NCBI RefSeq assembly: GCF_018143015.1 | Contig: NC_054753.1 | Span: 27,297,462-27,361,461 of the forward strand | DNA from: Lytechinus variegatus | Lineage: Eukaryota > Echinodermata > Echinoidea > Temnopleuroida > Toxopneustidae | Length of the DNA stretch: 64,000 bases | Reading direction: 5' to 3' | In this document: one piece after another, positions 813 through 48,599 of the stretch | How positions within the stretch are numbered: the stretch's first letter is position 1 | Layout: each line of letters starts with the position of its first letter | Translations under genes and position numbers: made by a program | Notes under the pieces: generated by a model | The model's input: the letters and a program-made list of their open reading frames with translations, nothing else | Database searches by the model: none | Told to the model about the DNA's origin: nothing

Positions 813-2273
813 CAGGCGCGTAGCCTGGGGGGCGGTGGGGGCGGTCGCCCCCCCCCCCAAAACGTCCCCAAAAAGAAAAAAAAGAAGGGAAAAAAAGAGA
901 GGAGAAAAGAATAAGGGAAGGGAGGAAAGGGAAGAAAGGTAGCTTTGTGTTTTTTTTCTTTTTATTCTTTTTTTTTCTTAAAAGAGAAACTCCATCACTC
1001 TTGCTTTAAATTTATATATGAATTTTTCTTCCGCGCTGCGCGCGGTTAAATGACAATATTGCAATTCTCCATTGTTTCCCCACCCTTTCTCTAACCCTGT
1101 TTTTCCACCTCAGGTATATGTGTTTCTTACCGGTTAAAGTTCAAATGTATCCATTAGGGCATGGAATTAGAGTAAGGCTACGCCAAAGTATATGAAGTTA
1201 TCTTTTTTTTAATTGATCGTGCAACTTCTGGTCGGGTCGGCTCCGGGCGGGTAAAATTTTATATCAATTTCTGCCGCAACCTCCATAAAGTCAACTTCTC
1301 CTGCTTTTCAGCTCATTACCAAACAACCATAATTCTGGGGCAAACAGGTTCCTAAAATTCGCGTCGTATTAAATAAAGAAGTACAATATTTTTTTTATCA
1401 AATTCTATTAAACTTCATGTCATTTCCCTTCACATTCATCTCCTGCCCTGTTTTGCGCCCTCAGTTTGAAATTTTGAATGACACTTAAGTTTCTTTATTA
1501 TTCAAAATGAAGCACTTCAGGATGATAAGTCAAAGAAATTAGGAATCCTCTTTTTTTTTTAATTCAATTTCAATAAATCACAGAAGTTTCAACTTTTTGC
1601 GCACTATTTCCTCATAAAGAAGTTCAATAATCTTAGAAAATCATTTTAATTAGAGCCGATGGTGGTATTAGACGTATCTGCATTATTTTGATGAAACGTC
1701 CGCCCTTTGAAATTTCAGAGTTTCATTGCTCTGCGCGGGACTGAATATCTTTCTCCCGGCATATATACACTTCTTCTCCTCTATTTTGCGAGTTAAAGAT
1801 ATGCACTGTCGCTAAATTGTTTGTAATCAAATCTGATCTTTCCAAGGGAAGTATTCAATATATCTTTGAGAAAACCCTTTAGTCGGGACCCTTTTCATGG
1901 CAAAAAAACTGGTAAAACGCTTTAGCTTCCGCGCTTCGCGCGAGGGTATTATTATTTTAATTTCCTCCAATGTATTCCTTTTTTGTGCGTTCACAATCAC
2001 TTTTTGAAAACAAATTAGATTCATGAAAACAATATTCAAAATCACAATGAGTCAACTGAATTGGAGCTGAAATAGGCACTAGAGACAAGAGAGACGGCTC
2101 CTTTTCATTTTAATTTATGAAACACCAAAAGCTTCGCGCTTCGCGCGGGAGGGGGAAACTCCCCCTCCCTGCACCCACCCCCTAGGGAGCGCGCTTCGCG
2201 CGCTCTGTAAGTGTTGGCACGCTTCGCGTGCATTTACCGCCCCCTCCAAAATGAAATCCTGGCTACGCGGTTG
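813..2273. mobile_element. hAT-like non-autonomous element, copy 1
   Basis: Ends CAGGCGCGTAGCC and GGCTACGCGGTTG are inverted repeats of the CAG...GCG type usual for hAT elements. They are flanked by TACTACTA on both sides, consistent with an 8-bp target duplication although the flank is itself a triplet repeat. Subterminal G/C tracts and several GCTTCGC hairpin motifs (about 1930, 2130, 2190, 2220) are present. A near-identical inverted copy is at 12641-14026. The only shared open stretch (1827-2045, minus) has no recognisable domain. Confidence 0.75.
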
Positions 2274-2318
<45 letters not shown>

Positions 2319-2331
2319 TATACTGCTACTC

Positions 2332-2424
<93 letters not shown>

Positions 2425-2514
2425 CTACTCCTACTACTACTCCTACTATACTACTACTAAAACTACTACTACTACTCCTACTCCTACTACTACTCCTACT
2501 ATACTACTACTAAA

Positions 2515-2572
<58 letters not shown>

Positions 2573-2610
2573 CTACTCCTACTCCTACTCCTACTACTAC
2601 TACTACTAAA

Positions 2611-2650
<40 letters not shown>

Positions 2651-2776
2651 CTACTCCTACTACTACTCCTACTACTACTACTACTACTTCTAAAACTACT
2701 ACTACTACTCTTACTGCTACTACTACTTCTACTACTGCTACTCCTACTACTACTACTCCTACTCCTACTACTACTC

Positions 2777-2818
<42 letters not shown>

Positions 2819-3121
2819 CTACTCCTACTCCTACTCCTACTACTACTACTACTAAAACTACTACTACTACTACTACTACTCCTACTCCTACTCCTACTAC
2901 TACTACTACTACTACTAAAACTACTACTCCTACTCCTACTACTACTACTACTCTTACTGCTACTACTACTTCTACTACTGCTACTCCTACTACTACTACT
3001 ACTCCTACTCCTACTACTACTCCTACTACTACTACTACTAAAACTACTACTACTACTACTACTTTTACTGCTACTACTACTTCTATTACTGCTACTCTAT
3101 ACTACTACTACTTCTACTATA
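2274..3121. repeat. (ACT)n array, left arm continued
   Basis: Continuation of the left-arm array beyond the nested hAT, with the same TAAAACT, CTTACTGCT and TTCTACTACTGCT punctuation. Open frames here are poly-Tyr, poly-Thr or poly-Leu and are not considered coding. Confidence 0.9.
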
Positions 3122-3697
3122 TATTAACAAGGACCGTGTGCGCGTAAGAGGCGTGAACACAGAGGGCGGCAAACATAAATCGCAGAAAGATAGAGGTTGA
3201 AGAGTGAGGAATTAGAACTAGGGCGCTGATCTCATTTTTATGAGAAATGTTGTTGTTGATCCCTTTGTTGATACACGTATTTATTTATTTGTTTATTTAT
3301 TTAAATATTTTACCAGGGTGCTCATTCAACATACATGTAAAGTTGGTCTCCCATGGGGCCCTAAAAGGCTATCATTATTGTTCTTCTTGTTTGTTGGTTT
3401 TGGACTCTTGGTTATTATGGGAGTTGGGCAACTTGGGCTGTACATAGTGCCGTTTTTTTTGTGTGTTTTTTTTTGAGGTTTTTTTTGTGTATCCCTAATT
3501 CTCCCCTAGTATAATCTAACGCCTGTAGGCTTAAGCAAAGGAAAAGGAAAAGGGAAGAAATGAAAGGCGGAAAATAAAGAATCGCTATAAATAATTTTTT
3601 AAATATTTATTATAATCTTTTTAAAACTTTAATACAAAATGTTACGAGGGTAATGAAGCCATGTACTCATATTATAGTCATAATCAGTACGAAATAG
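3122..3697. other. Spacer between arrays, with minus-strand LINE tail
   Basis: No gene seen. At about 3278-3363 the complement reads AGGGCCCCATGGGAGACCAA and ends in a TAAA-rich tail, the same 3' end as the LINEs at 6990-7070 and 11270-11340, so a minus-strand LINE 3' fragment lies here. 3620-3690 is a weak direct repeat of 4752-4810, which flanks the AGT array on its other side. Confidence 0.6.
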
Positions 3698-4744
<1,047 letters not shown>

Positions 4745-4907
4745 AGCTTATTTTCAAAAATTTTCAAACTTTAATACTAAATGTTACCAGGGGAGTGAAA
4801 CCACTCATCCAAGGTCCTTCGTTTCAAAAATACTTTTTTTCTACAAGCTTCGGCGGCGATTTGCGGTTTAGGTGCAATTTGCGGTTTAGGGCCTTAACAT
4901 ACGTCCT

Positions 4908-7332: not shown

Positions 7333-9911
7333 CAGTGTTGTAGTCAAGGCTCAAACATCCAAGGCCAAGGCTTTAATACCCAAGGCCAAGGCTTCAATAA
7401 CCAAGGCTGAGGCCAAGGCATGGAAACCCAAGGCCAAGGCCAAGGCCTGAAAACCTCAAGGCCAAGGCATTTCAATTGTACAATACATGGAAAAAAATAG
7501 ACAATGCTTTGGCAGCATACATGACACACAGGACCAAATGTATAAAAGGTGTGAGCGAGCAAAATTTTTGACCCTTGTACATTTAAAACGAAAATAATTT
7601 CATGATAGATCATGTAGATTTAGACATAAAATTAAAATAAATATATAGTTACCTTTGTACATTTAATTATTGTTCTAGGCGATTCACATTGCAATAATTA
7701 TTATTACCAAGGTGATCTGATCCTGGCATGCCCATTCTCAACATATGTCTTTCTCCTCTACCTGGGACAGGGGAGGCAGAATGTATTTTTTTTGGGGGGG
7801 GAGGTCAAAGCCAAAAATGCACTTACAGTATAAGTCAAAATGAGAATTTTGGTGCAGTTCAGCAAAGCTTTTTTTAAGTGATTTCTAATTGATAAGACAG
7901 ATATTTTGATTTAGGCTTTAATTTCCCGCTATAGAAAGCATAGCGAGCAAGTGGTTTAAAAAAAATATATCAATTTTGAAGTTGTAAAACTCGATTTTGG
8001 GTCAATTATAGTGCTAATCACTGTTAAAAGGGCATCCTTGCGAGATGTTGTAATAAGAAATGAAATTTAAATATTTCGAGCTGTTTTTGTAATCATGAAA
8101 AAGGTGTGCATCTTTCTACACAAATTAACGCGAGCACAAAACACAAACTGAAATTTTTACTGACCAGAAAAGGAAGCTGTTCTGGACTGCATTTAGTGAC
8201 TCATAAAAAGGATACATAACTCACCAATCAAAATTAATAATGCGAGCGCAAAGCGCGAGCTTAAAAATTTGTAATATTCCGACCTAAAAACTAGACATTC
8301 TAAGCATTTTTTTGTGTAAATTGAATGCGAACCTTACTCAACAATAATTTATGCAAGCCCAATCCAAATTGAAACCTAAAATTTTGCTCTGTATGCCATG
8401 CTTGGCCCCTCAAAATTTTTGGCTCATCATGCCATTGATGCCATAGCCCATTTGGAAATGATGAAATTGAAGTTTGTGTTCAAGTATACCGAATCTTTTC
8501 AGAATATCATTAAGACTTAAAACATTCTTGTTGGTCAAAGAAAATAATACAAGGAAAACCTAATGGAATACAAATCAACCTTGTTATCATTCTTTAGAGT
8601 AAGCTATTTTTAAAGTATGAAAATTGTTGTCAAAATTGCAGTCAGATCTGTCAGAATTATTCCTGTCATAAAATCACTATAATCAGTGGCGTACCGTGGG
8701 TCACGGCGTTGGGGGGGGGCACCAGCAAAAACTTGGAATTGCCTAGTGAGCGCGGGAAGCGGGCCCAGTTGCCAGGTATACTGACCTAATAGAGATATTT
8801 TTATAAGGACAGTGCCAATAAACGGACATGTATCTCATTAGCCGAATAATGCGAGCGCGAAGCGCGAGCTTAAAATTTTTGATATTCAAACCTAAAAAGG
8901 GACATTACAATCAATCTTTTTTAATCGTGATACGTACCTGTCTCGCTAAATAATGCGAGCGCGAAGCGCGAACTGAAATTTTTGTAAATATTGACCCCAA
9001 ACAGGAAGATTTTAAGGACTATATTTTAGGAATCTTTTATCTATTATGATTATACACATCTCACCATGGTCATCTAATGGGAGTGCCAATAAGCGCTTGC
9101 TGATTTTGTTAGAATTACATCTAAACATGCACATAAAGCACTTGTAATCATGATTAACATACCCATCTCACTAATCAAATCTTGCGAGCGCGAAGCGCCA
9201 GCTGAAAATTTAGGAAATTCAGACCTGGAGAGGGGCATTTTAAGGCTTGTTTGTAGGAATCCAAGAAGACCTTACGTAGTTCACTAACCAAATGATGCGA
9301 GCGCGAAGCGCGAGCTGAATATTTTTGATATTCAGATCAGAAAACAGAAACATTCATGTCTTCTTTCCAACTACATTTCTCTTCCTTTCTCCCTTTTTTT
9401 CCTCCTTTTTTTAAGTCAGCCGATGGGGGGGGGGCACATGCCCCCTGTAGTTACGCCACTGACTATAATCCTAATCATAATTATTATCATTATTATTGAT
9501 ATTGTCATTATCCTTATTAGTCATGATTACATCATATTACCAATAAATAATATTAATTTTCATCACTTCTCTTTGTTACATAATTATGTGATGATAATTG
9601 CAATTGATGGCACTGCTAAGTACACTTACTGCTTCTGCTGCTGTTGACTGGTAGTATTTAGTGTCATTAGATGTACAGAACAATTGAAACATCTATAATT
9701 ACTTGCATAAAACAAATGAAAATACAAAATGCCTTGAAAAGGCCTTGAAAATGCCTTGAAAATGCCTTGAAATTTCAAGGCTCAAAATCCTCAAGGCCAA
9801 GGCCAAGGCCCTCTCAAGGCCAAGGCTTGAATGTTCAAGGCCAAGGCTTTGAAAAAATAGGCCTTAAGTCGCCTTAAGGCCAAGGCCGAGCATCAAGGCA
9901 CTACAACACTG
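7333..9911. mobile_element. hAT-like element with CCAAGGC subterminal repeats
   Basis: Ends CAGTGTTGTAGT and ACTACAACACTG are perfect inverted repeats with ATGTTTAC on each side (7325-7332, 9912-9919), a textbook 8-bp hAT target duplication. Subterminal zones (7345-7470, 9730-9900) carry many CCAAGGC/GCCTTGG words. Interior is non-coding and includes a second, nested hAT at 8684-9461 and one GCGAGCGCAAAGCGCGAGC unit near 8241. The 89-aa minus frame at 7344-7613 is translation of the CCAAGGC repeats. Confidence 0.9.
8684..9461. mobile_element. hAT MITE carrying GCGAGC repeat units
   Basis: Ends CAGTGGCGTACC and GTTACGCCACTG, flanked by a perfect 8-bp duplication ACTATAAT (8676-8683, 9462-9469). 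The 778-bp body contains four GCGAGCGCGAAGCGCGAGC-type units (about 8851, 8954, 9183, 9299), each followed by TGAAAATTTTTGATATTCAGACC-like sequence. G tracts lie just inside both ends. It is the cleanest small carrier of the repeat that dominates 16.2-29.5 kb and 63-64 kb. Confidence 0.9.
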
Positions 9912-11107: not shown

Positions 11108-14100
11108 GTACGTATTATCCTAAAACTTACCTCCCATCCCATCCAATTTACTTTTACCATATCAGTACATTATAAGTCCGTGCGTCATCTAGTTTTAGTT
11201 TTGAATCTTGATGCCGCAACATTTTATATTCTGTACATACGTTATGCATTTTGTAAATATGATATTGTTAGCCCCATGGAAGACCACTACTTATTGGTGA
11301 ATGGGCAACCCTAGCAAAATATCAGAAATAAATAAATTACTGTCATGAGTTTAATCATCATCATTGGTACTTTGTCAGACTCTTTTCTTCATCTCTCTTT
11401 CCCTTTCAGATCATGAGCCAGACCCTTATGGTCCATGCGGCAAACCCACCATGTACGTTCCCAACGGGGGCTTTGATTTATACGACAGCGAAAATTATTT
11501 ACAATGCACAAGCTCCATTGCTTGGCTGGAATGTGAGCCTGTGGTTTACTGTGATAATGGATACAAGTTCTCTAGTGATGTTGATCTCGTATGTCAGAAG
11601 AAGAACTCAACCTATGAATGGGTAGGACCTACACCAATCTGTATACGAGATGACCACGACCGCCACTCCAAAAAGTGGAGTACGTATTATCCTAAAACTT
11701 ACTTCCCATCCCATTTAGAATAGAAATGGTTTATTTGAACAAAAGAAATCATTCGCGGCCCAAAGGCCGAATTACAGATTTTCAGACAAATACAAAAATA
11801 TACATGAAAATTACAACATAATGATCGAGAAACGGGAATTAGAAACACAATTTTGTGAAAAAAAAATCACATGCCTGGGGTAAATACATACAGTGTACAT
11901 ACGTTATTGCCAAATCAGTCATCATTGTAATACAATCATTTTATAACCATTTACTATTTGATTCATTATCATAATTAATCTAAGATTTGATTATTATTAT
12001 TCTTATCATTACTATCAATATCATATTTAACTATCCTTTTATTATTCACATTACTATACTTTTACCATATCAGTACATTATATAATAATAATAATAATAA
12101 TTCAATATTTATATAGCGCCTAAAAAATTCTTTAAGCGTTTTACATCGCAAAACCTAACTACTTAACTTAATAAACTAAACTTACTTATCAACTTAACTA
12201 TATACCTTAACAAAACATCCAATGTAACCTTACATATCTAAAATACTAACTTTACTACGGACATATTAACTGACATACAAGTCCGTGCGTCATCTTTTCT
12301 CGATATCTAGTTTTACTCATATTCTGTATGGTTGCAGCCCATATGCAGGGGCTGCGGAACGTATTTCGTTTTTTTTGGGGGGGGCCGGGGCAAAGCCAAA
12401 ATGCCAAAAATATATTATAGTAAATGCTGTCCTAAGCATCCTACTCAAAATGTATTATAGTGCTACAAAACAACTTTATTTCTCATCAAATTTTGAAAAA
12501 TTTCCTTTCCAGTTACTGTTAGCACAAATCTTTCAAGTAATAAAAAAGCTAAAATAAATTTGACTTGCGCTTTGCGATTACAGTGCAAGCTTTTTAATAC
12601 CGTAATTGGTTGAGAGAAATGATTAATCTGTTCAATGGGATAACCGCGTAGCCACAATTTCACTTTGGAGGGGGCCGCTGGGGTGAACATGGTAAATGCA
12701 CGCGAAGCGTGCCAACCTTGGTGCCGTGCCAACACTTACATAGCGCGCGAAGCACGCTCCATAGGGGGTGGATGCAAGGAGGGGGAGTCTCCCCCCCTCT
12801 TGCGCGAAGCGCGAAGTTTTTGGTGTTTCATTAATTAAAATGAAAAGGGGCCGTCTCTCTTGTCTCTAGTACCTATATCAGCTCCAATTCAGTTGACTAC
12901 ATTGTGATTTTGAATCTTGTTTTCATGGATTTTGTTTTCAGAAGTGATTGTGAACGCACAAAAAAGGAATACTATGGAGGAAATTAAAATAATGATAACC
13001 CCGCGTGAATCGCGGAAGCTAATAAAGCGTTTTATCAATTTTTGCCATGAAAAGGGTCCCGAGAAAAGGGTATTCTCCATCATGTCCATGATATATTGAA
13101 TACTATCCTCGGAAAGATCGGATTTGATCAGTTGATTACAAACAATTTAGCAACAGTGCATACAACTCGCAAAAGAGAGGAGAAGTGTATGTGCCGAGAG
13201 GAAGATATTCTTCCCCCCGCAGAACTTCATTACAAGGAAAATAGTGCGCAAAATGTTGAAACTTATTGAAATTATATATATATTAAAAAAGGATGCCAAA
13301 TTGCGTTTACTTATTCTTCGCTTCACTATGAATTATAAAGAAACGTGTCATTCAAAATTTCAAACTGAGGGCGCAAAACAGGACAGGAGATGAATGTGCA
13401 GAGAAATTAAGTTTTATAGAATTGGATACAAATATTGTACTTTTAATTTAAAACGACACGAATTTTTATATACCTTCATCTTTTTTAATCAGGAACCTGG
13501 TTGCCCCAGAATTATGGTTGTTTAGTAATGCTGAAAAGTGGGAGAAGTTGACTTTATGGAGGTGACGGCAGAAATTGATATGAAGATTTTACCCACTCGG
13601 AGCCGACGTACCCGACCAGAAGTAGTTGCGCGATCACTTAAAAAAAGATAACTTCATATACTTCGGCCTAACCTTATAATGTATACATTTTAACTTTAAC
13701 TGACAAGAAACACATATACATGTAGCTGAGGTGGAAAACAAGGTTAGAGAAAGGGTGGGGAAATAATGGAGAACTTCAATATTGTCATTTAATCGCGGGC
13801 AGCGCGGAAGCAAAATTCATGTATACAAACTTAGAGCAAGAGTGAAGGAGTTTCTCTTTTGAGAGAAAAAAAATAATAGAACAAAAAACCCCACAAAGCT
13901 ATCCTTGTTCCTTTTCCTCCCTTCCCTTTTCCTTTCCTTCTTTCGTTTTTCCCCTTCTTTTTTTTTTCTTTTTGGGGACTTTTTTGGGGGGGCGACCGCC
14001 CCCACCACCCGCTGGCTACGCACCTGCAATATGGGATAGCATGAGCTTAAAAAAAAACAGTTTCCAAGTTAATATGCAGAAATTATTCTTCTTGCGATCC

Positions 14101-17100
14101 GATCCATTTGTTGTAGCGAGATACACATCCTGCATGTTCACATATATAATATATATCTATATAAATATTGTAAAGAACTGGATGAAGAGAACAATGGTAG
14201 ACGTAGCTTAAATCAAGGTTCCCCAGGGTATCAAAGCAATAGCTTTTTAGAGACATTTTTTTTGGCATCAACAATTTTTCCAAAGGGTAGATAGCTCTAG
14301 GGAATTGTTCTCTTCATCCATACGTGTCCTGTATCAAAGCAATAGCTTTGATCCAGCTGAGACATGGCGGCTTGTCATTGTTCAAAACTCACCTTCACCC
14401 GACAAAGGAAAATAGTATTGGTATAGTGTCGAAAATCTGTCTATCTGACGGTCAATCGGACCGGGCTCACCCTAGCCACTAACCCGTCTCTGTGGTCTAG
14501 TGGTTAAGGCACCGGCGTTCAAAGCTGGGGGCCCGGGTTCGATTCCCGGCAGAGACATTTTTTGGGCATCACCAATTTTTCCAAAGGGTAGATAGCTCTG
14601 GGGAACCTTGATTTAAGCTACGCCTACCATTGTTTTCTTCACCCAGTTCTTTAAAATATTTAAATAAAAAAGAGTTGCCAAAAAGTTGTTGTACATGTAA
14701 ATCTTTACACACACACACACACATATATATATATACATTGTAAAAAAATGATGTGCTAATTGAGATTAAATTTGGACTAGAATATCAGCACTCGTAGTGC
14801 AGTCACTATACAAGCACTGTAAGTGCTAAATTAGCACTTCATTTTTTCACAGTGTACAGGGGGTTTCTTCCCCTCATTATTTAACTTCCAAAACGCACCA
14901 ATAACAATCACAACGACACAATCCCATACACCATTTGAATTGTCTATAGAGAATTTTTTTTTTCTTTATTAACCCACCAGAGATATTAGGTATTTCAGTT
15001 GGACTGAGCTTGGCATTGACAGTGTGCGGTGGCCTTGTTAGGGGGTAAGTTTTTTTTTTATTCCTTCTCGGTATAGTCTTCCCTTGTTTTGCAATTATTT
15101 TCGTTGAAAGATAATTTACAGGGGCCGCGGAACGGTTTTCAAAGTGGGGGGGGGGACCATGCTAAAAATCACAATCATAATTATGATCAATTTTACGTAT
15201 TTGTACACGATTTTGGAAAAAAAGTGGGGAGCCGAAGCCAGCCCCCCCCCCGGTTCCGGGGCCCCTGACTTATGAAGAGGAATTACTATGTTCTCAGATT
15301 GTCGGATTCATCATCTTCTTCTTATCCTCTTCCTTTATTTGTTTTTCTTTTTTTTCTGTGTTTTTTTTTCTTCTTCTTTCATCTTTGCTTTTTGATACTT
15401 CTTTCTCTTTGTTAATCTCTTCCTTTCTTTCCCTCTCTCATTTCATTCTTTACATATATAGTTATTTCCCTCTTCTTTTCCTTCTTTTTGTATTCCTTTT
15501 CTTCTTTTCTTTTCTTTAAAAAACATAATTTTCATAATGTTACTTCTCGAAGGGGGGGGGGTCGGCCGGATGACAGCTATTTTTCTTGTTCTTCCTAATA
15601 TATTAAGGCCTATTCTTCGTATTACAAGCCCCCCCCACCCCAACCCGCTCTCTCTCTCTCTCTCTCCCTCTCTCTCTCTCCCTCCCTCTCTCTCTCTCTC
15701 TTTCCATATTCTATTATCTACTTGGTTATATTTTTGTAAGGGTTATTAGAAACTGATCCAACTTTACAAGGGCAAATTCTACTCAGTCCAATTGAACAAA
15801 AGTTTTACACATGCTAGCTTCAATAATCTTTACAAAGCTCATGTCAATAAGATTCAATCACAGGGAGACTAAAACCATGAAAACCACTCACATCAATTGG
15901 TTTCAGTATCAAAGTCACAAGATGGCAAATGGAGATGTTTTTCCAAGAATGTCCTTCATCAATGTTCATAGTGATTGGACGGGGGAGGGGGGGGGGGGCA
16001 GATGACCGTCTATCTCGGCGTGGTGACATGCGGGAATCTCAACCAAAGGGGGACAAGGGGCTGGAAAATTTAAATGGGGAGGAGTGGAAGGGTAGAAAGT
16101 AGCCTATCAAAGGAACATTGTACGGGCGTGTGTAACTCTGTTACTCTGGTATACGCCCTTAAAAAGAGACATCATTTTTTACTTGTCTCCGGGCCTAATA
16201 TTTGCGGAGCATGAGGGGGAGGCCGGGGGAGAAAAAAAAGGAAAAAGCAAGGAGGAAAAATAAAAAGAGAAAATAATACGAGTGAATTAAATAAGATGAG
16301 GGGGAGACTTGGACACTCAGACGATTCCTTACGCGGCATCATCCTTGATGTCTACTTCCTTTCTCGTACTGAATTCCTTGTCGGCACATTTTCTTCGCAG
16401 GAATATAATCTTTCATGTCACTATAATTTTTTGCTCACGCTCCGCGCTCGCATTTAAGCTTGTTTGCGATGATAATTATCATGCTCAATAGGCTGCTTTA
16501 GAGCTTAAACTGTAGTCATCAAGTTTTGAAGTCAATGTACAAAACATATTTCAACTCGGACATCGCGCTTTCAATCTTTTGTTTGCTTTACAAATTAATA
16601 AAAATAGCGTTTTGTAAAATGTCCGTTTTATGGTCTGAATGTCAATATTTTCAGATCACGCTGCGCGCTCGCATTATTTGATTTGTCAAATACCTTACTT
16701 TCCTCTTCGTGTATTTCAATAAAATGAGTTCTCAAATATCTCTTTTCATGTCTGATTGTCAAAAGGTATCAGCTAGCGCTGATGTGCGCTCGCATGTTGA
16801 TTGAGTTTTTATTTAGTTACCGGTAGGCCTATATATAACAACCTTCTTAAAATCTCCTTTTCATGACAATGAAAAATCTCGCCTCGTGATTTCAGCTCGA
16901 TAAATTTGTTGTTAAAAATATATTCATACCCATGCTTCCTATTCATATTAACATAAATGCTTAAAATTTCAACTTTTCAGGCCTTGATATCTACAAATTT
17001 CCCGCTCTCATTAGTAAGATGACAACATCTTTTATCAATTCCTATAATAATCAAAGTCAAATGATCAAATTTCATCTCGCGCTTATAGGAAGAGGAATAG

Positions 17101-20100
17101 GAAGATAATTATATGCCTTTTAATATGATGACGAATGTTCTTAGAATGTCGCATGATTTATTAAGTGCGACCCATACCACTTCACAATTTATTGCACAGT
17201 GCTTGAAATAGTGCTTAAATTGACCTATTTTCAGATAGGAATATCAAATAGTTTCAGTTCGCACTCGCATTATTGATTTATGATAAAAATACCCAGATTC
17301 TAGGACTAAATCTATGGTATAATCTAGGACACGCCCCCGGAAGGAGGCAACTTCCATGATTTACAAATAAAGCATGAATAGTGTCCTGTTTATTAGGTCA
17401 AAATCTCTTCGCGCTCGCATTAATCGTTTGGTTAGGCCTATATAGTGCGTATCAAAAAAAACGGGACAGTTTTGAAAAGTCTATAAAAAATTTGTTTCAA
17501 ATTATCATATCTATATTTTGATGTTAATAGATGCTCTGGGATCTTATCTTTGAAATGCCATTTAAAAAAATAAATTTTGTTCATGCTTGAGCGAACACGG
17601 GATGTTTTTGTCGGGGGTTCAAAAAGAGGCTTGCGCCAGAATGGCAGAAATGAGAAATTTGATGATTAGACTTTTTGCTAATCAGCAGACTTCCTCTTAA
17701 TCTTTTCATTATCGTTGCCATAATTTTCGAATTAAGCTGTCAAATTTCATTTACAAATTTATTTATTTATCTGAATTATTTTGTTTTTCATCTAAAATTC
17801 TTTAACCCGTTGATTTTTTTTCATAGTAAGAAAAGAAGACTTTTTTTAAAAGAAGACTTTTTGTCAACCCAAGTAAGAAAATTTGCATTATTAATTGGGA
17901 GAATTTGTAATTATTCAAATCCTTTTATAATCTGAAACAAATTATGTTATGGTACCTATAAAAGACATAAATCCTATTTTTCAAGGGGCTATTGAATCCT
18001 TCACCAAGTTTAATTATGTGCTTGACAGGGCAAACAGGAAAGGATTCATATCTTTCAATGGCAATGGTGTATTGAGTCAATTTTGAAGGAGCAAGATATG
18101 GCAGATCGGGTAAAATGTATTAAAAAGTTGTGAAGCGAGCAAGCAAACTTTTCCACTTTTTTATTAAAATATCAAATTTTATGATGTTGACATAATATTC
18201 AGAAAAATGATATCATATTTCATTTTTAATGTTTTCTTTCATTTCCCTTTCCACTTTTTTTCTTGGTCATGATTTTTTTTTTGGGGGGAGCACCCCGAGC
18301 CCCCACCCATCAGTATGCCACTGTTCAAAGGCACCATAACTTTTGTAGCACGCAATGAAAGGATTTAAAAAAAAAACGCTCTCCCATACTTCGGTTAAAA
18401 AAATGTTCTTGCATAAAGAAGGAATATTCAAAGCTAAAAGAGAACATATTAAAAAGGAACAACAACAGAAATATTCAAGCAAATAAGTAAATTTGGAAAT
18501 GAATTTTGACCGCATAATTCGAAAATTATGGCAAAGATAATGAAAAGATTAAGAGGAAGTCTGTTGATTAGCAAGAACTCCAATCATCATATTCATCGTT
18601 TATGCCATTCTGGCGCAAGCGTCCTTTTTAACCCCAGACAAAAACATTCCGTGCTCGCTCAAGCATGAATGAAACTAAATTATTTTATTTGTATTTGAAG
18701 GATAAGACCTCAGAGCACCTATTGACACCAAAATATAGAGATCATAATTTGAAACAAAAATTTTATATACTTTTCAAATCTGTCCCGTTTTTTTTTGATA
18801 CGCACTATATAGCTATCCTGTTCATGATTACAAAAAGTGCTCAGAATTCAATTTTTTTTAGGTCAAAACGTCAGCTCGCGAATCGCGTTCACATTATTTG
18901 ATTTTTTAAATATGAATTGTTTCCATAGCTAACTACAAACAGTGACTAACATGTCCCATTTCGATCAGGCTAGACTATTAAAACTTTACTGAGTTACATA
19001 CTGATCTGATTGTTCAGGATCAGAAACATAGTTCAGAATGATCTATAAAGAATGGAAAAATTTGATTAATTTTTGTAATCATGAACAGGATAGCTATATA
19101 ACTAAACAACTGATGTGAGCGCAAAGCGCAAGAGGAAAAACTCTAGTTTTAGACCTAGAACGGGACACTCTATTCCTGTTTTGTAAATCATGAAAAGGAT
19201 GAGTAAGAGGGGATCTTCCTACATTAATAATAGTCAGGCAGCATATGTCATCTACTTCGACAAATTGGCTAAGTCTGATTTTTCACTTTTATGTGATTGG
19301 TGACATCATAAGGAACAACTTCCAACTTGATGACAAATTTCTAATGGTCATCTTGACCATGTGAGGGGTCAAAATGGGGGTCAATAGGGGTCAATTTTTG
19401 AAATTTCCCCAATTCTGTCGAGTCATTCCTCAAATTGTTTGTCTTGTTATACTGAACAAGAAAGTGTACGCAATCATATACTCTTGGCCTCCCGTTAAAA
19501 GGTTATAACAAACTTTCATTAAATTTCAAATTACACTGAAGGTGTTTAGAAAGCTTTTTTCCCCTTTTTTTTAATGGGTGTACTTTTTGAATATCGATTT
19601 TGATAAGTTCATCTTCAGAAGTCCTTATACAGAAGATATAAATGGTCAAGCCAAGGTGAGGGAAAGGTCAAAAGGTCAATAAACTTTAATTTGTAGGCAT
19701 GGGCGGAAATCCCAGGGGGGACATGTCCCCCCTATTCAATATAGTAGGAGGGACACAATATCAAATGTCCCCCTTACTATTTTGGTCTTTTATGATGGTA
19801 AGAAATACATCATTCTAAATCGAAATGAAACATTATTTTGGGACGAGATGACCGTATTTTTGGGATGATAACCCTTTTTTTTTACTTGTCAAATTTCCCC
19901 GCCCCTTGTCCCCATAGGCGGATCCAGGGGGGCCGATTCTGGCTGTTGTTCCCCCCCCCCCCTATTGGCGGAGCAAAAAAAAGAAAAAAAAGGGAAAGGA
20001 AGAAGGGGAAAAAAGAGGGAAAAGAGAGGAGAAAAAGAAAAGAAGGACGACGAGTGCATAAAATAAGATGAGGGGAAGACTTGGAAAATAAAAAGGAATC

Positions 20101-23100
20101 TTTCGTGCCACTGTATAAAATTTTCTTTCGCGCTATGTGCTTGCATCGCCTATTAGGTGATTTATGTATCTTGTTTAATATGGAGCTCAAATATCAGCTC
20201 AAATATCAACACTGAATTCAGGTCAAAAGATATCGTGTCTTCTCTATGCCGATGATCTTGTTATCACTTCCGAAAATGAACTTGGGCTTCAAACAGCATT
20301 AAACCATTTAAAGACATATTGTATAAAGTGGAACCTAGAAATAAATACAAAGAAAACCAAAATAATAATTTTTAATAAAGCAGGTAGAACACTTAATAAG
20401 AATAAATTTTTCTTTGATAATACCGAGATAGAAATTGCTAACGAATATAAATATTTAGGAATAATTTTTAAACCATCGTGCACATTTACTCATGCTATAA
20501 AACACTTGTTCAACAAAGCAAAATAAGCCCTCTTCAGTTTACGAAACATTTTACCAAAAGACAGAATCTCCCTTATAGCTCACCTTAAGCTTTTTGACTC
20601 TTGTATAAAACCAATTGCCCTCTATAATTCAGAAGTTTGGGCTGTTGAATATTTAATAAAAGAAAAAAAGTTAATTGAGACTTGCTATAAAACATTCCCC
20701 CTGAAGCCCTACAATCAAAATTTCTCAAAGTGATTTTGGGTACGAACAAGGCGGCAATGAATAGCGCCATGCTAGCAGAAACCGGACGATTCCCTCTTGC
20801 CCTCACTTCACTGAAAGATACTATCGGATTCTGGCACCACATGACTAACTCCGCACGTAAAACATGTAAAAGCCTAGTAAATAAAACGTACGTTGAGGAC
20901 AAAAATACAAACATAAATTACTGCAAATATATTGAATCTTTTCTAAGCTCATTGAGCTTCTCCCATGTATGGGAAAACCAAAATACGTTTTCGATTAACA
21001 GATTAAAAAAAGCTATACACAGCAAACTACAAGACAGATACATTAAATCATGGAAAGACGCTCTCTGCAATGAACAAAGTACCGAATACTCCACCAAACT
21101 GCAAACATATAAAACCTTTAAACTAGAATACAAAATGGAAAATTACTTATCACTAGACATAGAAAAGTCACATGTAACCAAATTCACTAAACTCAGAATA
21201 AGTAATAGCAATCTTATGATTGAAGAAGGAAGATATAAGAAACTAAAACCAGAAGAAAGAACATGTCCTCTATGCAAGGCCGGTATAGAGGATGAACCTC
21301 ACTTCCTTGTCACCTGCTCATGTTTAAAAGAGCCCAGGTTAGAACTATACTCTAAATTGAATGAAATATTACCGGATTTCCAAAGCTTAAACAATAATGA
21401 TAAATTTAAACTAATGATGTCGAATTCCGAAATAGACTTAAACGCAATAATAGTTAAGGGAATAAGTGCAATGTTTGATAAACGTCTGGAGCTCTTGCAA
21501 CATAATAAGTAATGTATCCATAATAAAAAATAATGACAATAATAATAGTGATAATAATAATGATAGTGATAATAATAATAATAATAAATAATAATAATAA
21601 TATAACTTTTTATAGCGCCTAATACTCAAGGTTTTTAAGTGTTTTACATTGTAATTATTTACCCTTACCTACCCTTTTATTTATTTTTTTTCACCTGAAT
21701 ATGGCTAATAGACAAAAGTAGAAAAATTTTGTTATTATTGATCTGCTTATGTTCTAATATTGTTGTTGTCATTATTATTGTTGTTATTATTGTTACCATT
21801 CTCCTCAAGCTCCCCTTCTTCCTTTTAAATATCACAATGTACTTATTATAACTTATTATAATTTGTATTAATTCATTATGATGTAAATATGTATTTCAGT
21901 AGGTCATGTGACCTAAGACTCCACATACTGTATTATGTTAATGTTTATTATGTATATTATTATGTAAATAAGTGGGTATATTCTATTATGTATCATATTA
22001 GGTATATGTCTATTATGTATTATGTACATGTATGTCTATTAGAAAAGCGAAAGAGTCATGAGTAATGCAACTAAATTTAAATTGCCAACAAGTTCATATT
22101 TATTTTGATATGTATGTTTATTATGTATATTATTATGTATATCATTTAAATTATTTTGTTTCTGTTTTTGTTTCATTGTATAATTTTGAGAACAATCCAA
22201 CATGTTTGTGATTATAATCAATAAATTTTGAATTTGAATTTGAATATCAAGTTTAGAAGTCAATATACAATATTTTGTGTGATTTACAAATTGATTTTTA
22301 AAAATTGCTCTTTAAAATGTCAGTTTTATGGTCTGAATAATAATTGTATCAACATTTGCTGCTTGGGCTGCGCGCTCGCAAATTTTGATTATCCGGTACC
22401 TATTATATTCGTATTCGCTAAAATTGTCAAAATATCCCTTTTCAGGTCTGATTATCAAGAAGCATCAGCAGCTAGTGCTGCACGCTTGCATTTTGATTGG
22501 CGAGTTATGTATGTTTCATTATTGATTATACAACAAACTACTTAAAATGCCCTTTTCAGTTTATCAAAAATTTTAGCTCGCAATTTGCGCTCGCATTAAT
22601 GCTTAAAAATATATTAAGTGATGCATCCTATTCATAATTACAAAAGAAAATGTCAAGTTTTTTTATGCCATAATATCATCAGATTTCGCGCCCTCATTAG
22701 GCATTAATAAACATGATATTAATTTAATAATTAAATTGTCCCTTTTGTTTCATCTCGCGCTTTGCAAGAGGAATAGGAAGATAGTCATCATTTTCATGAC
22801 ATGTCGTAAGGATGTCCCGGTCCTATGTCAAAACTCAAAGTAATAATAATGAAAATTTTAGCTCTTTTTTAAAAGTGCGATCCATATCTACCTTACAATT
22901 TTCATACAAAGTGCTTGAAATATAAAGCTAAATTTGACTCATTTTTCAGATCGGAATTTCAAAGTTTCATGATTTTCATGATTAAAAATGTATTTAGAAT
23001 GCCAAAATTCTATGTCTATATACGAAAAACTCGCGGGCATGTTTATTCAAATACTCAACTTGTTCCCTATTCAAATCATTATCCAGTTTCAGATCACAAT

Positions 23101-26100
23101 GTCAACATTTTTCTGCTCGCACTTTGTCCTCTCATTATTAATGTAAGAAGACCCCTTATTACTCATCCTTTTCATGATTTACAAAACATGAACAGAGTGG
23201 CCCATTTTTAGGTCTAAATCTCGATTTTTTTTCTGCTCGCGCTTTGCGCTCGCATCAATTGTTGAATTATATAGCTATCCTAGACACAAAAATTAATTGA
23301 AAATTTCTATTCTTTCTTTAGAAGTTTCAAAATTTTCAGCTCACGCTTCCCGCTCGCATTTTTTTTATTGTTGAAATATGTAACGCCTTCATGGCTAAGT
23401 GCAAGCAGTCCTTAACAGGTACCTTTTCAACAGGTACCAGTTCTAAACGTATAGAAAAAAATTCTCCTCGCGTTTTACGCTCACAATATTAATACTCATC
23501 CTTTCATGATTTACAAAACATGAATCGAGTTTAATATGGCTGAAAAAAATTCAACCCCCCCCCCATTGGCGAGGGCAGGATCCGCACTGTGTCCCCCCTA
23601 CCTTTTGGGAGAGATTTCCGCCCCTGTTGGGAGGCAAAATACACTAAAAAACGGTTAAAATCTTAGAAGTTGGTTCTTTATTTTGAAAAGTCTCTATCTA
23701 AGAAGACATTATCCATTAGATAAAAAAGGGGTCAAATGTGCTCACTTAGGAACAAAACAGATAAACAGAGATAGACGTCGAATACATTCAGGGTGGTATC
23801 ATAGTATTGCAGGAATACCTTGCAACGACTTGACAAAATTCATGATAATGTAATTGCAACCAGCTCTTTCCGATTTTCTTGATTTAGGAATTAAATTCAA
23901 GTCCAATACATTTTATAATTTACTAGTCTTTGATATGCAAAGAATCATTTCATCCATTTGCCTTGTACAGAATATTTTAATCAACAGAAATTATTGTAAT
24001 GTATTGGGGTATGTGTGTCATACTATGTTAACAGAGTAAATACATCGATAGATCAGTGCTCCCAGCTCTTAAGAAAGATGCCTAACATCTTATTTGGATT
24101 AACTTACGAATACGATAATGAGGTTATGATTGAGGATGATATGATAAGTTGGGCTCCAGTTGCTCCTCAACTAGTTCTAATGTGTGACGGTTATATTATT
24201 TCTGACAAAGAGGCAACGTCGTGCAAGAATGCTCATTGTATTCATGGGTGTCCATTATGCTGATGTGATATAGTCTGACCATTACTCGATCTCTGGAGCC
24301 AAGAAGGACTACACATTTCTGATGTGCTGCCATTAACACGGCTTGTACTATTTTATCAAGTGTTTTTTTTCCAGAGTATACAACGTGAAACTAAACTTAA
24401 TACCAGTTCTCATGATTGTGATGTGCATATAGATGCAGATTTTGTTTTTTTGTTCTTTTGTCGTTCTTGTTTTGTTCCTACTTGCTGAACTTAAAGTAAA
24501 CCACGGCCATACCGCAGCGGGGGGGGGGGGGGGGTAGCTGCCCCAAAAATTTTGAAGACTTGCATTTTTACTGAAAAATAAATACTATTGACCAAAAGTA
24601 TGCACGAAATCTTTAAATTTCACTTTACAAAATGCTAAAGGGCACCAATGATAAGCTCAAAACAGCACATGCACCAGCAATGTATAGTCCTGCTTGGCTC
24701 CAGAGATCGAGTAATGGTCAGACTATATCACATCAGCATATAATGGACACCCATGACTACAATGAGCATGCCTGCATGATGTTGCTGCCTCTTTGACAGA
24801 AATAATATAACCATCACACATTATGATTAATTGAGGAGCAATTGGAGCCCAATTATCATCCTCAATCCTAACCTCATCTTATTCGTAAGTTAATCCAAAT
24901 AGTCATCTTTCTTAGGAGCTGGGAGCACTGATCAATCGATGTATTTACTCTGTTAACATAGTATTACACATATACATTACAATAATTTCTATTGATTAAA
25001 ATATTCTGTACAAAGCAAATGGATGAAATGTTTCTTTACATATCAAAGACTAGTAAATTGAAAATGAATTGGACTTGAATTGCATTCCTAAATCAAGAAA
25101 CCCGGAAAGAGCTGGTTGCAATTACAACATCGTGAAGATGATACGATGTTAATGGCATTAGGGTTTGTCAAGTCGTTTTATGGTATTCCTGCAATACTAT
25201 GATACCACACTGAATGTATTCGACGTCTATCTCTGTTTATCTGTTTGTTCCTAAGTGAGCACATTTGACCCCCTTTTTTATCTAAGGGATAATGTCTTCT
25301 TAAATAGAGACTTTTCAAAATAAAGAACCAACTTCTAAGATTCTAACCGTTTTTAGTATATTTTGCCTACCAATAAAAGTTAATTTACCTTTTGCCCTTT
25401 CCCTGACCTTGGCTTGACCATTTATATCTTCTGGATAAGGACCTCTGACGGTCAAAATCGAAATTTAAAAAGTACTCACAAAAAAGAAGAAAAATAGCTT
25501 TCTAAACACCTACAGTGTAATTTGACATTTTAATGAAAGTTTGTTGACCTTTTGACATTTCCGGTTATAACCTTTTAACGGAAGGTCAAGAGTATATAAT
25601 TGTGTACACTTTCTTGTTCAGTATAACAAGACAAACAATTTGAGGTATGACTCGACAGAATTGGGGCAATTTCAAAAATTGACCCCTATTTACCCCATTT
25701 TGACCCCTCACATGGTCAAGATGACCATTAGAAATTTGTCACCAAGTTGGAAGTTGTTGCTTATGATGTCACCAATTACATAAAAGTGAAAAATCAGACT
25801 TAGCCAATTTTTCGAAGTAGCGGTAAATCATGACATATGCTGCCTGACTAGAATGTGAGCGCAAAGCGCGAGCAGGAAATGTTTGTAAACGTTTTGAACT
25901 GATCGAAAAGTGCCTTTAAGGACTGCTTGCAGTTAGTCATGAAGACGTTACATATTTCAACAATGAAATAATGCAAGCGCGAAGCGCGAGCTGAAAATTT
26001 TTGAAATTTGTACATAAAGAATGGAAAAATTTTAATCAATTTTTGTAATCATGAACAGGATGTTGGCTATATAACTAAACAACTGATGCGAGCTTGAGGC

Positions 26101-29100
26101 GCGAGTGGAAAAATTCTAGCTTTATAGACCTAGGACTGGACACTCTATTCATGTTTTGTACATCATGAAAAGGATGAGTAAGAGGGGATCTTCCTACATT
26201 AATAATGCGAGTGCAAAGCGCGAGCAGAAAATGATTTCGTACGTTTTGAACTGATCGAAAAGTGCCTTTATTATCATTATCATTTATTTCGGCAATGAAA
26301 ATTATAAGAAATTGGTATAGTGTAGTACAACACATAATAAACATAGCATAGATTGAGCACCCATGGACTGCCAGGGTCAAATAAAGTTAACTGAATTACT
26401 GTAGTCAATAAAGACCATTTGACCCTATCCAGTGGGTGCTAGCATAAAACCATGGACCTAAAACAGAAGCGGATAAAAGAGTGAGCATGAACAAAAAGGT
26501 TTAAGATCAATTATAATAGAATAAAATTACATAGGTCTACTTGATGACACTTCAGAATATCGAAATTAGCTGTTTAAATAAATAAATAATGAATTCGTGC
26601 AAGGGTGAATATGGTCATTCATTAGGCATAAAATTTTTCCTTAGTTCATTTGTCCATGAAGTAAGTGAGTTTACAACCACCCCAGAGCGCAAACTTGCCG
26701 GCAATACGGGGAAAAGAATTGATGGCTGATAGGTGAAGTCGATTTGTATGCCCTCGGAGGCGGTTGAACTTCACGACCTCCAAGTGCCTACTGTTTATCA
26801 CAACGGAACATCCAACTGCATCACAACGTGCAATACCATATAAAGCCTTGACAACATAAATTATTAATGAAAATTTCCTCCTTGATTCCAATGTTTGCCA
26901 GTTGAGTTTTAGTAATCTGTCATGATAGAATATTTCTTGCCTTCTTTGGTTAACCCTAAAAAGACTGGGCCCCCCCTGTACATAAATCGCGATAACTTTT
27001 TTGCGCATGAAGCGTTCGCGCCGCCATTTCATGACTTTTTTCTCTTGAGTTTTCCGCAACTTTTGATACCAAATTTGTATACCCCCATGCCGCGGTTGCG
27101 GAGTTACGTAACATTTTCGTATCACATGTCACGTAAGAAATTGAAATTTGTATTCGTTTGTGTGTAAAGTGTATGGTATTTGAATGAATGTTATACACAT
27201 TGTTTTCTAACTACATTTTTATTTGTTTCTTTCTATATTATGTCACTTGTGAATTCAATTAGCAGTTCTAGGATATGAAAATGATGAAAAACATTGCATA
27301 AAAAAATAAAGAAATAAGAAATGCAAAATAAAGAAATACAAATAAGAAATTAAAATCAAAGAAAAACATAAGAAAAGTAGTGCAAAATACCAGAATCGCT
27401 TGCACAACTATATTCTTGGGTGCAAGAGAGTGTAATGCAATAAAACATGCCAATTATTGTATTTCTCTACATAACGCATGTGGAGTAATTATTTGCATAT
27501 TTAGTAATTACTAATTTGCATAAGCATATCTAATAATTCAAGCATGAAACAACACAATTCCATGATAAACAACCTCTTCTTACAGCTGAAAACCTTGAAA
27601 CAGGAATTTATGGACCGTAATAAGTACCAAAATATGAAAAATTCAATTTTTTGATAAAAAAATTGCATATTCACATAATTAATTATGAATATAATTTGCA
27701 TAAATTATGTGATATCTCTTATGCTTTGTTTTCACCAGCTAGTGTACATGTAACACATCACTTGTTTATCTTCCAAGATTGCTTTGGCTCATTGAAAGAG
27801 AGTGTAATACAATAAAACATACCAAGTGTTGTATTTCTCTACATAACGCGTGCAGAGTACTTATTTGCATATTTAGTACTTACTAATTTGCATAAGCATA
27901 TCTAATAATTCAAGCACGAAATAACACAATTCCATGATAAACAACCTCTTCTTATAGCTGAAAACCTTGAAACGGGAATTTATGGACCGCAATAGGTACC
28001 AAAGTATGAAAAATTCAATTTTTTGATAAAAATTTGTATATTCGCATAATTAATTATGCATATATTAAAAAATACAATGAATATCAGTATTTTTACTATG
28101 TTTTCTTTTAGAGGACATGACAAAGGATGTGTGTGCCAAATTTGGTTGCGATCGGACGACCAACGGCCGAGATCTTAGGGGGGGGGGGCCCAAAAGGCCC
28201 CCACCCCCAGTTTTTCTAGCCTCCAAAATAGCCCAGTCTTTTTAGGGTTAAGTGTTATGCGGGGGCTCGTCTCTGAACATTTTCGACCTTTTGGGATAGA
28301 TATTTCGTATGCAAGTGCCAACCAAGCTGGTTGACCGTACTCAACTTTAAGGACTGATTGCACTTAGCCATGAAGACGTTACATATTTCAACAATCAAAT
28401 AATGCGAGCACGAAGCGCGAGCCGGAAAATTCGAGATTTAGACCTGGAACGGGACACTCTATTCATGTTCTGTAAATCATGAAAGGGCTGAGAAATTGGG
28501 ATCTTCCTACATTAATAATTCGAGCACAAAGGGCAAGCAGAAATTTTTGATATTCTGATCTGAACCTGGATAACTGGCGCGAGCGTGTTGCAGATTTAGA
28601 CTTAGAATCAATGCACTCTAAATACATCTTTTATCATGAAAATGAAAGCGAGCGCGAAGTGCGAGTTTAAAATATTTGATATTCTGATCTAAAAACGGGG
28701 GTCAATTTCAGCTTATTTCAAACACTTTCTAGGAAAATTGCTAGGTGGATATAAATCGCACTTGATAAAGTGCTGATATTTTTCATTATTACTTTTGAGA
28801 CATATAGACCATGTTATCATATGAATATGATGACTATAGTCATCTTGCTAAGCTCGAGATTAAACAAAAGGGACAATTGAATTATCAAATCGATATGTTA
28901 TTTATCAATGCATAATGAGGACGCGGAATCTGATGATATTATAACCTGAACACTGTACAATTCAAGCACTTTTTTATTTTGAATAGGATGCATCAGTAAT
29001 CAGTTGATTTTTTTTAACCATTAATGCGAGTGCAAATCGCGAGCCGAAATTTTTGATAAACTGTCACGAAAAGGGGATTTTAAGTATAATCAATACTGAG

Positions 29101-47000: not shown

Positions 47001-48558
47001 TATTCAGAGTTTCACCAAGTACATTTCCTTATAATAATTATGTATTTGCAAAGGAGATAAGTTCAAAATATTTCATTACAGATTTAAGAAAGTGTCGTTT
47101 AATCACTCCCTTTCAGAGCAATTGCTTTCATAACACATTAACACTGTTCAAACGAATTAATAAGAAATTACCTATACACATACACTGACCCTTTTCCCTG
47201 CTGGCCATGTCCTCAACACCTACTTTGCAAAGGAAAGGTGAAAATTTTCAGTCTCTAAGGAGCGAATTAGTAAATGAATGATTTTGGAATGAAAGTGCAA
47301 ATTTTGGATGGCCTCAGTGATATCCGAGGTTTTTTTCACTCAATATTCACTCTTTCATATATTCACTCCTTAAAGAGTGAACTATTTCACTAATTTTTTC
47401 AGAGTACCGTGACTTTGCGCTTTTCAAAGAAGGTACAATCAATCAAATGAATCAATATATAGACATGCCTTAATTCACGAAGGCAGATTGAATCAATCCA
47501 TGGATAAGATTAATTTATGGTCTAAGTTAGCGTTCATACTTTTGTACTTATACATGTACTGATTATTGAATCGTTCAAGAGAATAGGAACTTAGCAAGTA
47601 TGTTCCTTTCGAGCGTGTTACCTGATACTGCCATATGAAGCATTAGTATGCCTGTTTTTCCTTCATGTTGGGCATTATAATCCTTTACTGTTAAGGACTG
47701 TTTTGCATAACTATATTGGGTGAAAATAAACGTCTTCCAGTTTCAAGAAGAAGTAAGTCGAGGCGCAATGTATTTTGGAATTACTTATACCAGTGATTTC
47801 TGTACGTGCGCAGTCTTCTAGGTTTGAAGGTTATAAACTGACATTTCCTTACCTATGTTTTTATCATAATCATCATAACAAGGTACATAATAAGAAATGA
47901 ATCGAAATTATAACAAGTTCTATACAGCTTACTTCCGACAACCCGGTGAGGTTTATTTCATTTCCATACTTAATTCAATCAAGCCTTTGTAATCATGGTA
48001 ATTTTAAACAGAGTGTGCTTATCATTTTAGTGTCCGCATATCTGCACGTGGATAAGAAATATAATGTTGAGCTTTTTTTATTTTACCCCTTTTACTATAA
48101 TTGTAATTGATATTTTTTTTAGTTATTTGGCTGTTTATTTGTTTATTCCTTTAGTTGTTGATTCATTCGTTTGATCATTAACAATATCGCTACTTTTAAA
48201 AGAGTATACTACTATACTAGTAAAATAAGGAATACTAGTTATTCTAGATCATGCTTAGCAGGACTGTCATGACCAAGATGATAACTAGACATCCGACAAA
48301 TGACATTTCTCTTATGATCATCTTTACTCATTGTCATTAATCAAACAAAAGATTACTGCCATGAAAAATGTGTAAGGAAGTTTGTTTATTACTGGATGCC
48401 CTGTTTATTGCTGAAAGCAAAGTGATTAAAAGACACACGAGATAATCCATGAGGCAGATCGTGTTATTTTGTTATCTTTAACTCGTCTGCTTTGGCCCAT
48501 GATATTTTGTTTTTATCGAGTACGTTATCTCCTTCATTCTTTATATTTATATATTAAT

Positions 48559-48599
<41 letters not shown>

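Follow-up and report, generated by a model that had tools for sequence, protein, structure and literature searches.

The sea urchin Lytechinus variegatus carries, in a 64,000-nt stretch of contig NC_054753.1 (assembly GCF_018143015.1, positions 27,297,462 to 27,361,461; this whole stretch is called the window below), a short motif of 19 nucleotides, GCGAGCGCGAAGCGCGAGC, which forms the core of a repeated unit of about 113 bp. The carriers are of an ordinary kind: decayed hAT-type elements with internal repeats, with no transposase gene found in the open reading frames (ORFs) that we scanned. The core seems to have stayed nearly constant while the rest of the unit diverged, and we regard it as an evenly balanced proposition that the 19-mer was a duplex protein-binding site of these old elements, most likely that of the element's transposase. 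An earlier note on the same DNA had instead described the motif as a signal built round a GCGAAGC mini-hairpin. All counts, arrays and statistics come from this single window, which holds about nine arrays, many of them related.

Distribution of the 19-mer and its repeat unit

The G+C content of the window is 0.31 to 0.44 (2-kb steps) with a CpG observed/expected ratio of 0.72, and the units are CpG-rich islands at a regular period within AT-rich DNA. Exact matches of GCGAGCGCGAAGCGCGAGC number two, at 8851 and 9297, while 9 matches are found with at most one mismatch, 15 with at most two and 21 with at most three; each of five simulated first-order Markov sequences gave 0 at this last threshold. 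The claim that the motif recurs at least twenty times holds when three mismatches are allowed, but not literally. Twenty of the 21 matches lie inside the three stretches for which the earlier note had reported it (8684-9461, 16.2-29.5 kb and 62.8-64 kb), and the remaining one is at 8242, near 8684.

A unit profile built from these 21 core matches and their flanks (the seeds) recovered 34 units in the window (E<=1e-3), 21 of them the seeds themselves. The unit is directional, about 113 bp long, and has the consensus ...CACTAATCAAATAAT-(19-mer)-TGAAAATTTTTGATATTCAGACCTGAAAAAGGACATTTTAAGCA..., in which the AT-rich companion sequence that had been called constant does accompany the core. Neighbouring cores are 92 to 128 bp apart (mean 112.8, n=18, with core positions 16778 and 29118 set by eye), a range slightly wider than the 95 to 115 bp proposed before.

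The hAT-type element at 8684-9461

The stretch 8684-9461 is a real, bounded element whose units carry the motif, and the suggested link to transposable elements fits, because terminal inverted repeats (TIRs) and an 8-bp target-site duplication (TSD) frame it. Its features are as follows.

8676-8683: left copy of the TSD ACTATAAT, 8/8 match with the right copy
8684-9461, plus strand: hAT-type element, 778 bp, TIRs CAGTGGCGTA / TACGCCACTG (10/10), units inside
8851-8869, plus strand: exact 19-mer core, from the 19-mer match
8955-8973, plus strand: 19-mer core with 1 mismatch, from the 19-mer match
9184-9202, plus strand: 19-mer core with 1 mismatch, from the 19-mer match
9297-9315, plus strand: exact 19-mer core, then the perfect inverted repeat CTGAATAT-TTTTG-ATATTCAG, from the 19-mer match and folding
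9462-9469: right copy of the TSD ACTATAAT, 8/8 match with the left copy

Judged by the length of the TSD and the form of the TIRs, 8684-9461 is a hAT-type transposon: the TIRs begin with CA and match the CAGNGGCG type, which we take to be that of hAT. Duplications of 8 bp are also made by superfamilies other than hAT. The element contains no ORF of at least 120 aa, and an inverted-repeat search gave a single pair of 16 nt (94%), which takes in the flanks.

From 30 left-type and 40 right-type candidate ends across the window, four end pairs emerged whose flanks match at 7 of 8 bases or more, the cut that we used; 0.12 such pairs are expected by chance. These are 8684-9461, 46677-48652 (GTCGTCAT), 813-2273 (TACTACTA) and one 7/8 pair at 18062-18323; the duplication of 813-2273 is trivial, since this element sits in a TAC microsatellite. 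The second of them, 46677-48652, is another element, with CAGGGGCGTA/CAGTGGCGTA ends, a perfect 8-bp duplication and no unit-profile match within.

Conservation of the core

Core statistics refer to 31 of the 34 units, those in which the 19-mer is complete, and alignment A1 to 29 units. Corresponding pairs are positional counterparts in 10 chosen alignments of 0.13 to 1.0 kb. By comparing the two classes of pairs, we found that the core identity is 0.76 and the flank identity 0.567 in non-corresponding units (447 pairs), and 0.819 and 0.785, respectively, in corresponding units (18 pairs). Core divergence is thus similar in both classes and flank divergence is not, which argues that the source elements kept the core constant; the flanks seem to have diverged among units long before the elements spread, and the core hardly.

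Within the core, the outer non-complementary arms are the best conserved over the 31 units (0.89), followed by the stem of the proposed hairpin (0.87), and conservation is lowest in its loop (0.75). The same two A's, one per GCGAGC, are present in 31/31 units, while GCGAGC itself is exact in 18/31 units on the left and 14/31 on the right, and GCGAAGC in 7/31. Because the seeds were picked by their core match, which inflates core conservation, the profile was rebuilt from the same 21 seeds with the core hidden. It found 30 units (E<=1e-2), of which 27 have core columns free of gaps; three units came up with the full model alone. Conservation in these 27 units was 0.861 for the outer arms, 0.843 for the stem and 0.753 for the loop, against 0.693 and 0.758 for the flanks.

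These numbers bear on the view that the motif had no function, the unit merely hitch-hiking and the core looking conserved since units are recognised by it. We think this somewhat unlikely. The choice of seeds speaks for it, as does the lack of clear extra core conservation in corresponding copies (0.799 against 0.824, from the ten pairwise alignments below). Yet the core-blind model still places arms and stem above the flanks, even though 10 of the 19 core bases belong to CpG, and from corresponding to non-corresponding units the core identity drops little whereas the flank identity collapses.

The ten pairwise alignments speak to the time after insertion. Core identity in them is 349/437 (0.799; range 0.63 to 0.92), that of the rest 3143/3814 (0.824), and that of the G/C positions of the rest 835/1112 (0.751); CpG transitions make up 44 of 83 core changes. 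Since the core lies between its two controls, there appears to have been little or no constraint on it after insertion. It seems, then, to be formerly constrained, while the elements were alive.

A candidate duplex protein-binding site

A core that was constant across units while the flanks diverged, in a carrier with TIRs and a TSD, suggests a site bound by protein as duplex DNA. The units would be internal head-to-tail repeats of old hAT-type sea-urchin DNA transposons, and in the mobile element the 19-mer would have been read as a duplex by a protein, most likely its own transposase, as a BED-finger type of site. Contact may have been through the two GCGAGC half-sites, which have the same orientation and are 13 bp apart. 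A transposase would find its element more readily with several such sites in it, in line with proposals for Hermes, with its many BED contacts, for Kat1 and for Galileo. The central GCGAAGC would arise incidentally where two AGCGCGA heptamers abut and would not be a selected hairpin. The earlier proposal of a selected signal, for example for transposase binding, agrees with our data; the hairpin as the selected feature does not, as far as the array units go.

Several observations weigh against a transposase site. No hAT transposase was found in the 10 of 31 ORFs of at least 120 aa that were scanned with Pfam, so that no protein is tied to the site; these ten gave DDE_Tnp_4, trypsin and kelch motifs only. 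The sites run through the whole element, not just near its ends, and in one direction within an array. The variation does not separate direct half-sites from an inverted reading, and covariation between direct repeats (registers +13 and +7) was uninformative. Choosing seeds by the core inflates conservation, a bias that the flank-only model reduces and does not remove. Finally, TIRs are established only for the arrays in 8684-9461 and 19698-23626.

Constraint is also silent on which protein binds. The CpG-rich motif might instead recruit a host transcription factor or chromatin protein, driving transcription or silencing of the element, and the periodic CpG-rich islands in AT-rich DNA and the directional units would suit such a role; we hold this to be distinctly improbable. 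The explanations weighed here are not exclusive, and our confidences in them need not sum to one.

The mini-hairpin in the array units

The heptamer of the d(GCGAAGC) mini-hairpin described by Hirao and colleagues is part of the unit consensus, which is the likeness between the two; the difference is that the arrays are without sign of selection for pairing. According to a passage of PMC4686876, the GCGAAGC fragment melts at 78 C, and such mini-hairpins follow the rule of a GNA or GNNA loop closed by two or more G-C pairs. The hairpin is also the predicted minimum-energy fold of the 19-mer. If GCGC-GAA-GCGC were the selected signal, it would act as an extruded cruciform or a single-strand hairpin, for transposase or replication.

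The pairing data do not bear this out. Watson-Crick pairs in the GCGC/GCGC stem number 96/124 against 94.5 in shuffles (P 0.30), and an independent count of standard pairs, G-U included, gave 87.1% against 85.9 shuffled, a value reached by 123 of 500 shuffles. The compensatory changes predicted for the stem were looked for in the window: two-sided changes occur in 2 of 116 cells against 1.3 shuffled (reached by 189/500 shuffles), and in these 31 units there is no stem covariation above shuffles. Slid registers pair far less than the hairpin register, as expected for a structure drawn from the consensus. The MAFFT alignment A2 put the left arm wrongly owing to variable loop length and was excluded from the counts.

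The loop behaves in a similar manner. GNA loops are present in 16 of the 31 units (GAA 10, GCA 5, GGA 1), so that six changed within the rule, which is a point for the hairpin; the other 15 break it (AAA 11, ACA 2, GAT 1, GAG 1). All four stem pairs together with a GNA loop are intact in 5/31 units. Folded as a single strand, the 19-mer has no advantage over its shuffles (z 0.24). A longer piece, 61 bases of the 9297 unit that take in its companion, beats all 200 shuffles (z -2.85).

GCGAAGC/GCTTCGC has 19 occurrences in the window: 7 in the arrays, 8 in the pair 813-2273/12641-14026, where they had been noticed before, 2 in another repeat pair (5142, 30961) and 2 elsewhere (41790, 43519). With repeats included it ranks 4th of 210 composition-matched heptamers, though the same 19-mer supplies, as overlapping words, six of the other nine among the first ten. 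After repeat masking, which left 44,414 bases, no enrichment is seen (2 against a mean of 2.05, rank 72/210 with ties alphabetical). For the arrays within the window there is neither enrichment over controls nor compensatory change above shuffles, the two outcomes that the earlier note had named as telling against its proposal. With a stem that does not covary, a GAA loop that is the least conserved part and a fold equal to that of shuffles, the selected mini-hairpin in array units is not upheld. We give this explanation a small chance, which also takes in the dyads of a second family described below.

The AT-rich companion inverted repeat

The selected structure could also be the companion inverted repeat CTGAA...TTCAG beside the core, which is compatible with a protein-binding 19-mer and which we judge very improbable. 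In the 9297 unit it forms a perfect 8-bp stem (z -7.29), and two two-sided switches are seen, CTGAT/ATCAG in one related set of units and CAGAA/TTCTG in another. In its own register 99 of the counted cells are paired against 30 to 59 in seven of the eight slid versions, a wide margin. Over the 31 units with ungapped arms, however, the pairs number 93/155 against 91.5 in shuffles (P 0.38).

Origin of the arrays

The flanks of units from one array are 0.568 identical (63 pairs), those of units from different arrays 0.577 (494 pairs). For 31 of the 34 units the closest relative belongs to another element; two of these 31 are the sole unit of their array as split here. Therefore the arrays probably predate the spread of the elements, or in other words were already present when the elements spread. 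The comparison of the 34 units gave no sign of local slippage or homogenisation since then, and the window shows no satellite expansion. Replication slippage had been put forward in the earlier note; neither slippage nor unequal exchange is supported as what produced the arrays seen now, since neighbouring units are not most alike and 31/34 partners are in other elements.

Comparison with known transposons and other sequences

Non-autonomous hAT elements of the miniature inverted-repeat type, together with Hermes, Ac/Ds and Kat1, share with the urchin elements an 8-bp TSD, short TIRs beginning with CA and repeated internal short motifs, as far as the passages on them go; Ds also has subterminal repeats. 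In the passages concerned, BED domains of Hermes are placed on subterminal repeats (PMC10368747), and the authors of the Kat1 work speculate that subterminal repeats enhance activity (PMC4763223). Unlike in these systems, the urchin motif lies in units of about 113 bp through the whole element, in one direction per array, and no transposase is seen.

Tandem units inside a DNA transposon are also a feature of the foldback-type elements Tetris and Galileo of Drosophila, and those of Galileo carry extra transposase sites, as told in a part of PMC4079207. The tandem repeats within the Tetris TIRs, about 220 bp long, are about 94% alike in the same account, whereas non-corresponding urchin flanks are 57% alike. 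Long inverted arms with tandem repeats, the foldback criterion, are not seen in 8684-9461, which has only the 16-nt inverted pair. The TU elements of Strongylocentrotus are sea-urchin foldback transposons and may share with ours a foldback-like layout with internal short repeats. A literature search on TU elements in sea urchin gave no match; sea-urchin foldbacks are mentioned, without the TU name, in the relevant passage of PMC4079207.

The exact 19-mer had no match in the literature. A published description of the unit was not found in the literature search, which did not extend to most subscription papers or to Repbase, where the family may already be named, and the part of PMC8615465 concerned with sea-urchin repeat expression has nothing on the unit. 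In GTDB, the 20-mer TGCGAGCGCGAAGCGCGAGC (the 19-mer with a leading T) is present in 44 stretches, 18 of them with a TGAGG...CNCGAAG frame, 8 with a Microbacterium frame and the other 18 unclassified. The frame TGAGG-TGCGAGCGCGAAGCGCGAGC-CTCGAAG was seen in contigs of several bacterial groups (L003, L007, L012-L014 and others). We take the 18 and 8 framed stretches as bacterial dispersed repeats, REP-like; the AT-rich flanks of the urchin unit (>65% A+T) are found in 0/44 of the GTDB stretches. We attribute the bacterial matches to chance, or to convergence towards a CpG-rich word. In viral contigs AATGCGAGCGCGAAGCGCGAGC had 0 matches and TGCGAGCGCRAAGCGCGAGC had 1, with flanks unlike those of the unit by eye.

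A second hAT-type family

Two further copies, inverted to each other and about 79-80% alike, belong to a second hAT-type family.

813-2273, plus strand: copy 1, with GNA-loop dyads (either strand) around 1037, 1935, 2140, 2195 (8-bp stem) and 2223 (6-bp stem)
12641-14026, minus strand: copy 2, inverted relative to copy 1, with the dyad at 12704 the sole perfect stem of at least 5 bp among five

Four GAA/TTC-loop sites lie within about 50-340 bp of one end, and a single GCA/TGC-loop site is some 220-230 bp from the opposite end. Perfect stems of 5-8 bp are seen at all five dyads of copy 1; in copy 2 the dyads are largely decayed, with such a stem of at least 5 bp in 1/5, which weighs against the hairpin as a selected feature. 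In its favour, GAGCGCGC-GAA-GCGCGCTC (z -2.85) and GCACGC-GAA-GCGTGC (z -3.46) are far ahead of their shuffles in folding, and between these two dyads one stem pair is changed at both of its positions. In this family a site that is structural or has dyad symmetry is plausible, from five sites in two copies. The hairpin idea, which fails in the array units, thus keeps some ground here on few sites, where the dyads of copy 1 are real. As far as the passages on Hermes (PMC10368747) and Kat1 (PMC4763223) go, the repeats inside the ends of this family look like hAT subterminal repeats.

The kernel GCGCGNAGCGC is present several times in both hAT-type families, whose termini differ; its context is direct half-sites in units of about 113 bp in the arrays and GNA-loop dyads, 4/5 of them near one end, in the second family. 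A faint possibility, to which we give very little credence, is that the shared kernel was a cruciform- or hairpin-forming transposase site in both families and that the bacterial recurrence reflects convergence on the same fold. If true, DNA structure, and not sequence, would be part of hAT transposon-end recognition.

Long TAC/TAG trinucleotide arrays are found at 206-813, 2274-3119 and 3695-4746, one of them split by the 813-2273 element. The segment 103-813 matches 4899-4157 in inverted orientation (85%).

Other arrays and nested insertions

Outside 8684-9461 the units are distributed as follows.

8088-8317, plus strand: two further units, boundaries of the carrier element not found (unit profile)
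16415-17435, minus strand: array of decayed units (unit profile, self-alignment)
18826-18933, minus strand: unit past the inverted-arm insertion 17438-18812 (unit profile, self-alignment)
19074-19189, plus strand: unit (unit profile, self-alignment)
19698-23626: hAT-type insertion, termini CATGGGCGGAAATC / CAGGGGCGGAAATC, flanks TTTGTAGG / TTGGGAGG (6/8)
22299-23490, minus strand: unit array within the (probably nested) insertion 19698-23626 (unit profile)
25820-26278, plus strand: array of four units (unit profile, self-alignment)
28360-29292, plus strand: unit array, TIR-like end AGGCGGATCTAG (reverse complement) near 29484 (unit profile, self-alignment)
63002-63860, plus strand: unit array, element ends not found, may run off the window (unit profile, self-alignment)

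Alignments of 0.39-1.0 kb at 67-80% link the arrays at 16.4-17.4, 22.3-23.5, 28.4-29.3 and 63.0-63.9 kb to one another. On these alignments they are relatives, not the unrelated-looking elements of the earlier description.

The insertion 19698-23626 was recognised by eye from the self-alignment, and its 6/8 flanks fall below the 7/8 cut. The unoccupied target of this insertion, TTGGTAGG, survives in the opposite inverted arm (25340-25410, reverse complement). Nesting is hinted at by a second end pair inside the insertion, 19915/23589, whose duplication is 7/8 (840 offset pairs compared) and falls in C-rich sequence. The insertion hit an inverted-arm element at 19231-25850, which lies within a unit array, has TA at both sides (by eye) and has arms 19231-19699 plus 23627-24329 against 24663-25850, about 85% alike. 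A further element, 17438-18812, has inverted arms of about 350 bp (85%), the end GTGCGTATCAAAAAAAACGGGACAG and TA-rich flanks, and is inserted in a minus-strand array.

Over 16.2-29.5 kb the arrays mostly face outward (far left minus, far right plus) with polypurine/G-run ends, and the minus-strand array of the later insertion (22.3-23.5 kb) lies between them. This layout resembles a large foldback element or two opposite insertions. The opposite-facing arrays at 16.4-29.3 kb are 68-72% alike and flank the nested insertions; the best common TSD for 16.2-29.5 kb is 7/8 among 4400 offset pairs, which is weak and was not counted as evidence.

Elsewhere in the window, a kelch-like ORF on the minus strand (44650-45870) shares 97% identity with kelch-like protein 26 of Lytechinus pictus. 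At 54107-54885 two reading frames overlap, and one of them encodes a fragment of a DDE_Tnp_4 transposase.

Implications for hAT elements

The analysis separates a real signal, a short motif constant in fast-diverging transposon repeats, from an attractive and unsupported structural story, and it names candidate bases for binding, the two GCGAGC half-sites 13 bp apart. If a transposase does read these half-sites, the recognition sites of a hAT element would be spread as a long internal array, not packed near its ends.

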